In this document: positions 1,792 to 18,739 of the stretch, one piece after another | Position numbering within the stretch: the first letter of the stretch is position 1 | How the letters are laid out: every line of letters starts with the position of its first letter | Assembly: GCA_025465235.1 (NCBI GenBank) | Contig: JAODNO010000002.1 | Span: 1-33,205 of the forward strand | Direction of reading: 5' to 3' | From: Pseudonocardia sp. | Lineage (GTDB): Bacteria > Actinomycetota > Actinomycetes > Mycobacteriales > Pseudonocardiaceae | Length of the DNA stretch: 33,205 nucleotides | Position numbers and translations under genes: made by a program | Notes under the pieces: generated by a model | The model's database searches: none | What the model saw: only the letters and a program-made list of their open reading frames with translations | What the model was told of the DNA's origin: nothing

Positions 1792-2328
1792 TCAGGGCCT
1801 GCCGGTCAACATCGCGATCATCCGGCGGACGCGGGAACGGCTGCGGGGCCGGGGATCGCTGTGCCCGTCGTACCGGAAGGCGGTTTCGCGTTCGGCCAGC
1901 TCGGCGGCGGCGCCCGTGCCGAGCTCGCCGCACCGCTGCAGGGCGCGGGCGATGTCCCAGCCATCCCGCAGCGCGCCGACCGGCTCGTGGCCCGCCCGGC
2001 GGGCGGCGAAGGCGCGCGGCCACTCGGCTCCCAGCGACGCCGCCAGTAGCGGCCACACCTTCGCGGCCTCGCCCGCGCGCTTGCGCAGCAGGGCGCGGCG
2101 GGTGGCGTCGAGGAGGGCCGGATCGAAGCCTGGGGGGACGGGACCGTCGGCCACCAGCGCGGCGACCAGGTCCGCCTGCCGCGCCGCGAGCCCGGACGTC
2201 CCGCCCCCGATGCCCGACGCCACCGAATCGCTCACAGCCCGAACCGCGGCCCCGGAGGCAGCGGCCGGCTGCCGGTGGTGATGGCCGCGGTGGGGTGGTG
2301 CCGGCGGCCGGGCCAGAGGCGGGCTCAT
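1792..2328 (-). CDS. 178-aa uncharacterised partner protein of the DUF692 operon (resembles SCO6045-type actinobacterial proteins)
   Basis: ATGA overlap with the DUF692 stop. Helical composition RQADLVAALVADGPVPPGFDPALLDATRRALLRKRAGEAAKVWPLLAASLG...LRDGWDIARALQ. Family resemblance is from memory only. Confidence 0.8.
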   Translation of the reverse strand: MSPPLARPPAPPHRGHHHRQPAAASGAAVRAVSDSVASGIGGGTSGLAARQADLVAALVADGPVPPGFDPALLDATRRALLRKRAGEAAKVWPLLAASLGAEWPRAFAARRAGHEPVGALRDGWDIARALQRCGELGTGAAAELAERETAFRYDGHSDPRPRSRSRVRRMIAMLTGRP

Positions 2329-3185
2329 CCCGCCACCGCCGTGTCGCCCGGTGCCGGCCGTCCCACCGCCGCGGCGATCGCCTCGAGCTCGGCGCGCAGC
2401 TCAGCCGCCGGCGGGTAGCGGCCGTCGCGCTCGAGCATGACCGGTGGAGGTCCCGCCGTCCGCTCGACGAGCCGTTCCACGAGCTGTAGTACGGCGCGGG
2501 GCACCGGGTGGATGTGGGTGTCGTGGTAGATGCCCGGGTCGTCGGCATGCTCCCCGCCGCCGGCCACGTGCACGTACGCGACCCGGTCGATCGGCAGCCG
2601 GTCGAGCACGGCCTCCGGGTCCTGGCCGCGGTTGACGGCGTTGGCGTACACGTTGGCGACGTCGAGCAGGAGGAGGGCCCCCGTGCGCTCCAGCAGCTCG
2701 GTGAGGAAGTCGGGCTCGCTGTACTCGTCGTCGGGCCAGTCGAACAGGGCCGCGATCGGTTCGAGCGCGAGCGGCACATCGAGCTCGGCCTGCGTACGCC
2801 GGATGTTGGTGGCGAGGACGTCCAAGGCCTCCCGTGTGCGGGGCACCGGCAGGAGGTGCCCGGCGTCGTGACCCGCCGCGCGGACGAACGCGACGTGCTC
2901 GCTCACGAGCGGGGCCTGCAGCGCAGCGGCACAGGCCGCGAGGTGCCTGACCCGGGACCCTTCGACGGGTTCGGCTCCGCCGAGGGAGAGCCGGACTCCG
3001 TGCGGCACCACCGGGATGCCCCGCTCCCGCAGCTCCACCACCCCTCGAGGTGGAGCCGCGGGAGCGAGCGTCTCGGCGATCACCTCGCAGAACGCCGGCC
3101 CGGGAAGCCCGGCCACCCAGCCGGCGATCTCCGGTCGCCAGCCGACGCCGACCCCGGCGGGGAGCAGCGCGTGCCGCTCAGCCAC
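2325..3185 (-). CDS. DUF692 / multinuclear non-heme iron-dependent oxidative enzyme (MNIO) family protein
   Basis: GTG start VAERHALLPAGVGVGWRPEI; family-type motifs HGVRLSLG, VSEHVAF, LALEPIAALF, LLLDVANVYANA, YVHVAGGGEH, YHDTHIHPVP, MLERDGRYPP. Confidence 0.9.
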   Translation of the reverse strand: MAERHALLPAGVGVGWRPEIAGWVAGLPGPAFCEVIAETLAPAAPPRGVVELRERGIPVVPHGVRLSLGGAEPVEGSRVRHLAACAAALQAPLVSEHVAFVRAAGHDAGHLLPVPRTREALDVLATNIRRTQAELDVPLALEPIAALFDWPDDEYSEPDFLTELLERTGALLLLDVANVYANAVNRGQDPEAVLDRLPIDRVAYVHVAGGGEHADDPGIYHDTHIHPVPRAVLQLVERLVERTAGPPPVMLERDGRYPPAAELRAELEAIAAAVGRPAPGDTAVAG

Positions 3186-4092
3186 CGCAGCCACCGCCAC
3201 CGCCTCCGCCACACCCGCCACCGCCACCGCCACCGCCGCCGTCGCCGCCGTAGCTGCTGGACCCGCTGCCCCCGTCGCCCGACGACCCACCTGCAGCCAC
3301 CCGCTGGGCAGCCAGCTCGTCGGCGAACGCGGGGTCGGACGCCCACAGCGCGCCCATCCCGAAGATCCCGATGCCCAGGGCGGCCCCCTCAGGCCCGTAG
3401 ACCGACCAGTCCGGCTTCACCTCCGGGGACAGCCCGTGGTGCTCGGAGCGCAGGGTAGCGAGCGTGCGGTCGCCGAGCCGGGTGCGCCGGGGCGCCCTCG
3501 CGAGCTGCACGGCGGCGACCGCGGTCACCGCCACCAGCGCCACGACCAGATACCCGACGGGCTTGGCCTCGGCCACTCCGGCCAGCAGCCGCACCAGACC
3601 GAGGCCGGCCACCACGAGCATCCACGACCCCACCCGCCGGATCCGGAGCCGTTGCTCCTCCGACAGCAGCAGGCCCGCGGCCACGAGCCGCTTCTCGATC
3701 ACGGCCAGCGCGACCAGCACCGGCCGGTGGAACTGCAGCCGCTTGCGCTGCATGGCGACCCGGGCGGTGAAGTGGATCGCGCGCTCCAGCTCGTCGGTGC
3801 CGGGGTCGAGCCTGCCGGCGGCCTGGACGGCGCCGCGCGACGACGTGATGGTGCCGCGCAGGTGCATCGAGCTCAGTGCCGAGTACACGGCGAGCTCGGC
3901 CCCGCCGTTCAGGTACGCCACGTCGTGGGGGCGCGCCGTCATGTCACCGGCCGGGCTCGTGGCCCGCGGATCCGCCAGTGCCCGACGCGCGCGGAACCCG
4001 GCCACCCAGATCGCCACGGCGATCAGGAGGTAGGCCACCAGGAATGACGGACCGCTGACTCCCCAGGTGTCACCTGTCGCTGCGAGGGTCAT
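3178..4092 (-). CDS. TIGR04222-type multi-pass membrane protein with Gly/Cys-rich C-terminal tail
   Basis: Hydrophobic segments FLVAYLLIAVAIWVAGF, SWMLVVAGLGLVRLLAGV, GYLVVALVAVTAVAAVQLA, GAALGIGIFGMGALWA; C-terminus GGDGGGGGGGGGCGGGGGGGCGG-stop; CTCAGGAGGTGTGCG upstream of ATG. Confidence 0.88.
   Translation of the reverse strand: MTLAATGDTWGVSGPSFLVAYLLIAVAIWVAGFRARRALADPRATSPAGDMTARPHDVAYLNGGAELAVYSALSSMHLRGTITSSRGAVQAAGRLDPGTDELERAIHFTARVAMQRKRLQFHRPVLVALAVIEKRLVAAGLLLSEEQRLRIRRVGSWMLVVAGLGLVRLLAGVAEAKPVGYLVVALVAVTAVAAVQLARAPRRTRLGDRTLATLRSEHHGLSPEVKPDWSVYGPEGAALGIGIFGMGALWASDPAFADELAAQRVAAGGSSGDGGSGSSSYGGDGGGGGGGGGCGGGGGGGCGG
3181..3291 (-). repeat. Low-complexity GGY (Gly) codon tract encoding the Gly/Ser/Cys tail
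   Basis: Plus strand reads gccaccgcagccaccgccaccgcctccgccacacccgccaccgccacc...; encodes GGSSGDGGSGSSSYGGDGGGGGGGGGCGGGGGGGCGG. Confidence 0.9.
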
Positions 4093-4219
4093 CGCACACC
4101 TCCTGAGCCGTCCTTATGAGACGCCTCACAGTGTTGCTGCCCTCACACAGCGCAGGGAACGTTCTTCACCAGGACTTGAGGTTGCCGCCTGAGCTGATCG
4201 ATCGGTGCGTGCTGACCGC

Positions 4220-4657
4220 TCAGGCCGCGGTGGCCGAACGCACCTGGTTCTTGATCCGCGCGAGCATCGCCACCATCCCTCGCAGCCGCAGCGGACTCAC
4301 GGCCTGGGCGAGCCCGAGCGCCGTGTAGAAATCGTCGGGTACGGCCAGCACCTCGGCCGCAGGCTCCCCGTCCAGGCCGGTGTGCATGATCGAGGCGAAC
4401 CCTCTGGTGGTGGGCGCCTCGCGTGGGGCCGAGAAGAACAGGTGCACCGCTCGGTCGCCCTCGGGCTCGACCTCGACCGCCAGGAACAACGGCGACTGGC
4501 ACTCGTGCACCTGCTCCATCGTGTCGGCCGCGTCGGCGTAGCGCTCCGGGAGCTCGGGCAGCTCCTGCGAGAGCTCGAGGAGCAGCTGCAGCCGGTCCTT
4601 CGGCCCGACGTCCGAGAACTCCTCGACCAGCTCCGCGAGCTGCGGGGGGAGGGTCAT
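4220..4657 (-). CDS. sufE: SufE family protein
   Basis: [40 protein letters not shown]...[13 protein letters not shown]...[48 protein letters not shown]; Cys in the HECQSP motif. Confidence 0.9.
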
Positions 4658-4745
4658 CGCGCGCCGCCCTCGCCGCGCCCGGTAGGCCCATGACATGACG
4701 TCGCAGCGCCCGACCGGTGCGCCGATGCTGCGCGTGTGCATCCGA

Positions 4746-5651
4746 TCATGCCGAACCGCGCTCCGATCCCTGCGCGATCGGCACCCGCACGGAGTTGCCC
4801 CACTCCGTCCAGCTGCCGTCGTAGTTGCGGACCCTGCCGAAGCCCAGGAGGTGCGTGAGCACGAACCAGGTGTGGCTCGAGCGCTCGCCGATACGGCAGT
4901 AGGCGACCACGTCGTCGTCGGCCGAGAGGCCCTGCTCCTGCTGGTAGATGGCCTCGAGGTCGGAACGCGGCTTGAACGTGGCGTCCTCAGCGGCCGCGCG
5001 GGCCCACGGGACGCTCGCCGCCCCCGGGATGTGGCCGCCGCGTACAGCGCCCTCCTGCGGGTAGTCGGGCATGTGCAGGAGCTCGCCCGAGTACTCGCCC
5101 GGCGACCGGACGTCCACCAGCGCCCCTCCCCGACCCACCCGGCCGAGGTGGGCGAGCACGTCGTCCTTGAAGGCGCGGATCGTGGCGTCGTCGCGCTCGA
5201 CCACCGGGTACTCGACCGGGGACGGCTTCGTCTGGTCCGTGGTCATCTCGCGGCCCTCGGCCACCCACTTGGCCCGGCCGCCGTCGAGGATGCGCACGTC
5301 CGGGTGGCCGAACAGGGAGAACACCCAGAGCGCGTAGGTGGCCCACCAGTTGTTGCGGTCACCGTAGAAGACCACGGTGGTGTCGCGGGAGATGCCGCGC
5401 TCGCCGCACAGCTCGGCGAACCCCTGCCCGTCCACGTAGTCGCGGGTGACCGGGTCGTTCAGCTCGGTGTGCCAGTCGACCTTCACAGCGCCCGGGATGT
5501 GGCCGGTGTCGTAGAGCAGCACGTCCTCGTCGGACTCGACGACGACCAAGCCGTCGGCACCCAGGTTCTGCGCGAGCCACTCGGTGGTGACCAGCCGCTC
5601 CGGGTGGGCGTACTCGGCCAGCTTCGGGTCGGTGTCGTTGGGCAGCGCCAT
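4746..5651 (-). CDS. sseA: Sulfurtransferase (tandem rhodanese, thiosulfate/3-mercaptopyruvate type)
   Basis: [40 protein letters not shown]...[11 protein letters not shown]...[18 protein letters not shown] active-site Cys. Confidence 0.93.
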
Positions 5652-6440: not shown

Positions 6441-6722
6441 TCAGCAGCCAGCGCCACCGCCACCACCGCCCCCGTCGCCACCGCTGCCGCCGCCGTCGGA
6501 GGCGCCGCCCCAGCCGCCACCTGAGTCGTGGCCGACGGAGTACGCGTCGTGGTACCCGCCGTCGCGGGAACGACTGCCGTGACGGACGACGCGGGGGTGG
6601 CTGCGGGTCGCGCGCAAGGCGTTGCGCTCCCGCTTGCCGCGGCTGGGAATGCTGGCCAGGGCGATCAGCACCGCCAGCCCCACGAGTGCGACGAGGCCGA
6701 TCCGGATGATCATTTCGTCCAT
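6441..6722 (-). CDS. 93-aa single-TM protein with Gly-rich tail and C-terminal Cys
   Basis: MDEMIIRIGLVALVGLAVLIALASIPSRGKRERNALRATRS...DGGGSGGDGGGGGGGAGC-stop; GGGAGGGAGGGACCGTC upstream of ATG. Confidence 0.78.
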   Translation of the reverse strand: MDEMIIRIGLVALVGLAVLIALASIPSRGKRERNALRATRSHPRVVRHGSRSRDGGYHDAYSVGHDSGGGWGGASDGGGSGGDGGGGGGGAGC

Positions 6723-18439: not shown

Positions 18440-18518
18440 GGATCACCGAAAATCGCGTGGCGCCCTGCTGCTCTCCCGTCGTAATGTGGCGGTACACGTG
18501 AGAGGAGGTGGTCCAGCG

Positions 18519-18557
18519 TTGATTAGCTACAGGACTCGTGAGGTGGCTGTCCGCTAG
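18519..18557 (+). CDS. Candidate 12-aa micropeptide (L/M)ISYRTREVAVR
   Basis: TTG ATT AGC TAC AGG ACT CGT GAG GTG GCT GTC CGC TAG, preceded by AGGAGGTGGTCCAGC (18503-18517), near-complementary over 15 nt to the conserved 16S rRNA 3' end (GCUGGAUCACCUCCU) with one position a G-U wobble. Confidence 0.5.
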   Translation: MISYRTREVAVR

Positions 18558-18605
18558 CACCACAGGACACGTTCTCCGACGGCCAAGTGGAAGCCGGTGT
18601 GGTGC
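18557..18605 (+). ncRNA. Predicted hairpin immediately following the micropeptide stop
   Basis: 8-bp perfect arms GCACCACA (18557-18564) / TGTGGTGC (18598-18605), inner CGGC/GCCG (18580-18583/18593-18596). Confidence 0.45.
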
Positions 18606-18627
18606 CGGCGAATTCCAGGCAGTCACC

Positions 18628-18694
18628 CGTGATCCCCGGGCCCGAGCCCGTCCAGCTCGGCTTGCGCACCCCACGGTGCGGCCCGGGGATCACG
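18628..18694. terminator. Large inverted repeat with two internal hairpins (candidate bidirectional terminator or structured RNA)
   Basis: 15-bp perfect arms CGTGATCCCCGGGCC (18628-18642) / GGCCCGGGGATCACG (18680-18694), enclosing CGAGC-N7-GCTCG (18643-18659) and CGCACC-N4-GGTGCG (18665-18680, its last base shared with the outer arm); between convergent purE and tetR. No U-tract. Confidence 0.6.
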
Positions 18695-18739
18695 CATGTC
18701 CGCTCTTGCGACAGGTGTCCATGTCGCGCGGCGGGAGGG

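Follow-up and report, generated by a model that had tools for sequence, protein, structure and literature searches.

A TIGR04222–MNIO–partner gene trio in Pseudonocardia and the Gly/Cys membrane-protein tail as its probable substrate

A three-gene unit and its recurrence

The window, a stretch of 33,205 nucleotides from a draft Pseudonocardia genome (contig JAODNO010000002.1), carries on its minus strand a membrane protein gene, an MNIO (DUF692) enzyme gene and a small third gene, which overlap head to tail by 8 nt (GTGGCTGA) and then by 4 nt (ATGA), exactly as a first-pass annotation of this DNA had described. The first gene (3178–4092, minus strand) encodes a 304-residue protein that matches the NCBIfam model TIGR04222 with E 5.4e-40 and 137 bits against a cut-off of 43. 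The second (2325–3185, minus strand, starting with GTG at 3185) encodes a 286-residue protein, and its assignment to DUF692 is borne out by a match to PF05114 (MbnB_TglH_ChrH; E 1.6e-79, 267 bits against a cut-off of 25). The third (1792–2328, minus strand) encodes 178 residues if the ATG at 2328 is the start, and its product is a DUF2063-like MNIO partner. The last ∼35 residues of the TIGR04222 protein (3181–3285, minus strand) form a Gly/Ser/Cys tail that contains Cys294 and Cys302 and ends in -CGG; this tail is the proposed substrate of the enzyme.

An AGGAGG ribosome-binding site of the TIGR04222 gene can be read directly at 4099–4104 (minus strand). Just upstream of it, alignment of the upstream regions reveals an imperfect palindrome, TGAGGCGTCTCA (4117–4128, minus strand), which takes the form TGAGACGTCTCA in two relatives; the palindrome before the trio is also given as TGAGRCGTCTCA. 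Farther upstream lies a conserved element, ACCTCAAGTCCTGGTGAAGAACGTTCC (4156–4182, minus strand), a putative promoter or operator of the trio that is shared by the Pseudonocardia loci and by L080 of another genus, and that has no second match within 3 mismatches in the source genome.

The trio recurs in other actinobacteria, as had been believed. All three genes are present at 34 of 36 named actinobacterial loci; one of the other two lies at a contig edge, and the last has a split ORF. They are also present at 42 of the 43 MNIO loci that adjoin a TIGR04222 gene among 150 genomes of the source organism's order, the sample in which TIGR04222 C-termini were read. Neighbouring genes were taken from a codon-composition gene caller; all-against-all BLAST clustering was swamped by antisense ORFs. 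The arrangement is more than chance. The draft source genome contains one MNIO gene and one TIGR04222 gene. In Pseudonocardia the trio is flanked by accA3 and by sufE-sseA-maf, whereas quite different genes flank it in other genera, and the unit is therefore the trio and not the neighbourhood. We considered sulfur delivery by sufE and sseA as a general feature of the system and rejected it, since both adjoin the trio in Pseudonocardia only.

The MNIO enzyme and its partner

MNIO enzymes perform unusual cysteine chemistry, and those so far known act, to our knowledge, on small, mostly secreted peptides. The nearest named relatives of the enzyme in the window are those of P. alaniniphila (85%) and P. 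xinjiangensis (83%). The iron ligands of TglH are His71, His107, Glu151, Asp184, Asn187, His216, Asp229, His231 and Glu258 (PMC10880893), and the alignment places all nine in the window's enzyme as H62, H97, E142, D175, N178, H206, D222, H224 and E252, at positions that are invariant across 20 sequences. Across 20 relatives, E-values are best with the BufB and HvfB models and poorer with those of ApyH, ChrH and MbnB. BufB is also the best NCBIfam match of the window's enzyme (E 7e-56), with a score well below the cut-off of that model (189 vs 310 bits), as is the score with HvfB (156 vs 360 bits). Judged from these profile scores, the enzyme belongs to a separate subfamily that is nearest to the copper-RiPP enzymes.

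The third protein had been described as small and uncharacterised. The small gene is real, but the second adjective no longer applies, as a profile match and a gene fusion mark the protein as a DUF2063-like MNIO partner. Comparison of a profile of 74 partner relatives with one of 32 DUF2063 proteins gives 90 collinear columns with a score of 31.9 (P 2.3e-4), while the reversed profile scores 13.7 and 60 column shuffles score at most 15.3. By this match, the third protein corresponds to what Antoine et al. call the "PME-type 2" partner. Single-sequence searches return little: the partner has no Pfam (PF09836 included) or NCBIfam family match, searching PDB sequences and Pfam with E allowed to reach 10 yields nothing meaningful, and the best Foldseek match, MbnC (E 1.9, TM 0.29), is not significant. 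The AF2 model of the partner is confident and helical except for the first 45 residues. Conservation is absent from these ∼45 residues, and relatives start 5–25 residues before a conserved LAxRQ motif, so that the start is uncertain and GTG 2235 is an alternative to ATG 2328; the conserved core begins near 2193.

In nine of nine sampled MNIO loci from genomes taken, by their size, class and gene content, to be Streptomyces (L165–L170, L173, L174 and L179), the enzyme and the partner domain are fused in one open frame, with the partner domain at the C-terminal end, and the neighbouring TIGR04222 protein often has no Cys. This fusion argues strongly and independently for joint action of enzyme and partner, and it forms a natural parallel to an engineered HvfB-HvfC fusion, which is active (PMC13419390). 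In Mycolicibacterium and Tsukamurella, only ∼65 residues of the partner remain, and an RRE domain is not evident in the partner, short versions included.

Cysteine tails and their co-occurrence with the enzyme

The TIGR04222 protein in the window ends in GGDGGGGGGGGGCGGGGGGGCGG followed by the stop codon, a C-G7-C-G-G pattern with two Cys residues, of which the final C302-G303-G304 is invariant in an alignment of 26 sequences. In the order sample, 51 of 62 Cys tails end exactly in -Cys-Gly-Gly, and among all tails read, 411 of 417 Cys residues precede Gly or Ser, the commonest spacing being 6. The codons of the -CGG end vary synonymously, and the end persists in genes whose stop is clear of the MNIO start. 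We therefore discarded the idea that -CGG is a by-product of the overlapping start; it is also present at copies that do not adjoin an MNIO gene. A tail of this kind in a GC-rich genome, where GGC/GGT runs are prone to expansion, could conceivably be a functionless slippage sequence. A neutral tail would lose its Cys residues randomly, however, whereas the Cys-Gly/Ser context and the -CGG end are kept across families with synonymous variation. Slippage is already contradicted by this conservation and is very improbable. A search of the source genome for other proteins ending in -GGCGG gave one further pattern match (L132), which does not fall at the end of any gene-like ORF.

Cys tails are found in 57 of 65 MNIO-adjacent TIGR04222 proteins versus 5 of 22 non-adjacent ones (Fisher P 3e-8, a value that ignores kinship). 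The eight MNIO-adjacent proteins that have no Cys tail belong to tandem arrays, as extra members next to a Cys-tailed one, and the five non-adjacent proteins that have one come from genomes with an MNIO gene elsewhere. Cys-tailed TIGR04222 proteins are thus confined to MNIO genomes in the 150-genome sample. Viewed from the enzyme, a Cys-tailed copy is present at all 43 MNIO loci that adjoin a TIGR04222 gene, and it carries the -CGG end at 39 of them. In five MNIO-free genomes the TIGR04222 proteins lack a Cys tail, although Gly-rich ends are kept in at least two of them (L107, L108). The coupling is looser in Streptomyces, where a Cys tail is missing from five of the seven TIGR04222 proteins read next to an MNIO gene; some of these genomes encode a distant TIGR04222 protein with 1–2 tail Cys, and in others none was found.

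The first-pass annotation had proposed that the tail is the substrate of the enzyme. That proposal now has comparative support, in that the co-occurrence of Cys tail, enzyme and partner is near exceptionless in the order and the tail Cys residues and the -CGG end are conserved in the protein sequence, and we consider it quite probable on these comparative grounds that the tail is the MNIO substrate. Alternatively, the tail might need no modification and serve as a metallothionein-like or disulfide-forming segment; the enzyme and its partner would then have another substrate, and the genes would be co-transcribed for some other reason. Gly/Ser/Cys tails are able to bind soft metals without modification, some MNIO-adjacent TIGR04222 proteins of Streptomyces have no Cys, and some MNIO genomes (G009, G073 and G086) have no TIGR04222 neighbour. 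However, the invariable presence of a Cys-tailed copy at the 43 loci, the loss of Cys in MNIO-free genomes and the absence of any other recurrent Cys-rich protein at the loci examined all speak against an unmodified tail, which we regard as improbable.

At one of the loci that stand apart (L126, from G073), the partner domain follows the MNIO gene, and neither a TIGR04222 gene nor an obvious Cys-rich protein lies alongside. Elsewhere in the window, a 93-residue protein with one TM segment is encoded between maf and accE (6441–6722, minus strand); it has a Gly-rich tail whose final residue is Cys (ending in GGGGGGGAGC before the stop). P. alaniniphila has a counterpart in the same place, ending in GGGGSC (L003, up to 1649), and none was seen in three other Pseudonocardia loci. 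It is possible that this protein is a second MNIO substrate acted on in trans.

Topology, proposed maturation and known relatives

The description of the first gene product as a multi-pass membrane protein holds, with three clear TM segments and a weaker fourth. TM1 spans residues ∼15–36 and is followed by a folded domain (∼40–145), TM2 (∼150–174), TM3 (∼179–198), the weak TM4 (∼231–252) and the tail. The AF2 model has a pLDDT of 84, with disorder in the last ∼35 residues. Averaged over 26 relatives, K/R counts are 0.4 for the N-terminus, ∼15 for loop 1, 0.8 for loop 2, 6.6 for loop 3 and 0.8 for the tail; loop 1 has K/R at both flanks, and the tail has 4 acidic residues beside its 0.8 K/R. 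By its charge distribution, TM1 looks like an N-out anchor. This distribution places the folded domain, which lies between TM1 and TM2, in the cytosol and both the N-terminus and the tail outside, with the caveat that a Gly tail would be poor in K/R in any case. We therefore favor, with some reserve, a tail that faces outside.

TM4 is short and weakly hydrophobic (KD about 1.2–1.7), and the tail could accordingly be cytosolic, with TM4 as a surface helix and the modified tail acting inside, near the membrane. Such an arrangement agrees with the preferred model on the substrate and differs on the final location of the tail. The cytosolic location of the enzyme and the basic linkers that precede the tail in several tandem paralogues fit it as well. 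In most Cys-tailed TIGR04222 proteins, however, TM4 is hydrophobic and hardly any K/R follows it, whereas Cys-less copies have basic C-termini, and Antoine et al. likewise put the tail outside (PMC12452194). We regard a cytosolic tail as a minority possibility, though one to be taken seriously.

Foldseek with the TIGR04222 model returned no match, which left unsupported our guess that the folded domain is RRE- or GPP34-like. With E values of up to 10 admitted, 19 of 26 TIGR04222 members show a remote match to DUF2207_C, the best of them at E 9e-5. DUF2207 membrane proteins are thus alike in this match and in having Gly-rich tails, as in the weakly matching L180 and L182, and differ in that these tails have no Cys. 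The sequences of L180 and L182, together with the DUF2207_C relation, suggest that the Gly tail may be older than its Cys residues.

Taking as its basis the observed families, gene coupling, iron ligands, conservation, co-occurrence and Streptomyces enzyme–partner fusion, our model regards the trio as a self-contained module for the maturation of a membrane-anchored protein whose modified tail is displayed outside, and we think this model as a whole reasonably likely. The C-terminal Gly/Ser/Cys tail of the newly made TIGR04222 protein would at first lie in the cytosol, where the MNIO enzyme, kept active by the DUF2063-like partner, would oxidize the tail Cys residues with Fe and O2. Neither enzyme nor partner has an evident export signal, so that modification would precede translocation of the tail. 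By analogy with the nearest characterized relatives, BufB and HvfB, the products may be 5-thiooxazoles; thiooxazole-type chemistry on the tail Cys is a tentative assignment, somewhat short of an even chance. The last TM segment would then put the modified tail outside, where, still anchored, it might bind metal, with copper as the leading guess. Metal buffering by the tail, again an analogy, is a little more doubtful than the chemistry, and copper buffering in particular perhaps applies, solely by virtue of the likeness to BufB and HvfB. More speculatively, and in our view rather unlikely, the cytosolic TIGR04222 domain may replace both leader peptide and RRE, the modified tail being surface-displayed and never released. 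Such a built-in recognition part would explain why the partner can be shrunk to ∼65 residues, RRE-less or fused to the enzyme.

The tail might instead be a conventional RiPP core that a protease releases after modification, with the membrane part serving as leader and export device. The disordered tail of ∼35–60 residues behind a conserved domain would suit such a role, and MNIO products elsewhere are mostly exported peptides (PMC12452194). No protease or exporter gene is recurrent at the loci examined, however, and the alignment contains no conserved cleavage motif before the tail, which makes a released core somewhat less probable even than an unmodified tail.

Clusters of TIGR04222, MNIO and "PME-type 2" genes were described by genome mining in 2025 by Antoine et al., who proposed the Cys tail as the MNIO substrate (PMC12452194). 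The idea of the tail as substrate is therefore not new, having been published as a prediction in that article; an experimental test of it was not found in the literature searched. The window is, by its sequence, a further member of these clusters, with sharper evidence: both domains score over cut-off, the C-proximal tail is of low complexity and contains Cys, and the DUF2063-like partner is missed by Pfam. The published clusters have the same three families, C-proximal Cys segments outside the membrane that are likewise proposed as substrates, and a short, RRE-poor partner. Their authors report a loose association overall, with partners predicted in at least 10% of clusters, whereas the trio here is almost obligatory in the order (PMC12452194). 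The main text of that article, as available, does not appear to contain the near-obligatory trio, the -CGG end or the Streptomyces MNIO-partner fusion. Its abstract speaks of large extra-cytoplasmic domains, whereas the charge distribution here places the folded domain inside (PMC12452194).

Among other systems, the bufferins (BufA/BufB/BufC) are alike in that an MNIO enzyme, BufB being the best NCBIfam match, and a DUF2063-type partner act on Cys. They differ in their Sec signal peptides and DUF2063-RRE partners and in the frequent presence of DoxX, whereas the trio has a polytopic membrane target, no adjacent DoxX, a partner without evident RRE or PF09836, and an enzyme below the BufB cut-off. 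The oxazolin system HvfA/HvfB/HvfC shares repeated Cys-Gly sites and the pairing of enzyme and partner; EGKCG motifs and a DUF2063-RRE partner are absent here, and the enzyme is below the HvfB cut-off. TglH/TglI shares the nine iron ligands and the need of the MNIO enzyme for a partner with a helical N-terminal domain. TglHI, however, takes the beta-carbon off the C-terminal Cys of a carrier peptide, whereas here several Cys are present, the last of them followed by two more residues. If the membrane-protein tail is the target, MNIO chemistry would extend to anchored proteins of a kind common among actinobacteria, Nocardia, Mycolicibacterium and Streptomyces included. The substrate idea is directly testable thanks to the natural fusion of enzyme and partner, the -CGG signature and a trio that is nearly obligatory.

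The surroundings of the trio vary by clade. Metal, copper or redox genes are not general neighbours at the loci examined. Clade-specific neighbours are a two-component system in Actinomadura, HxlR in Frankia and an ArsR-type regulator near the trio in Mycolicibacterium. At 11 loci of other members of the family, msrB (SelR/MsrB) lies directly upstream of tandem TIGR04222 genes (L097, at 4449–4889, and L076, L080, L082, L084, L091, L092, L096, L098, L100 and L106). The window also carries the actinobacterial sRNA Ms_IGR-5 of Rfam at 18494–18700 (plus strand), with a score of 100.8 bits.
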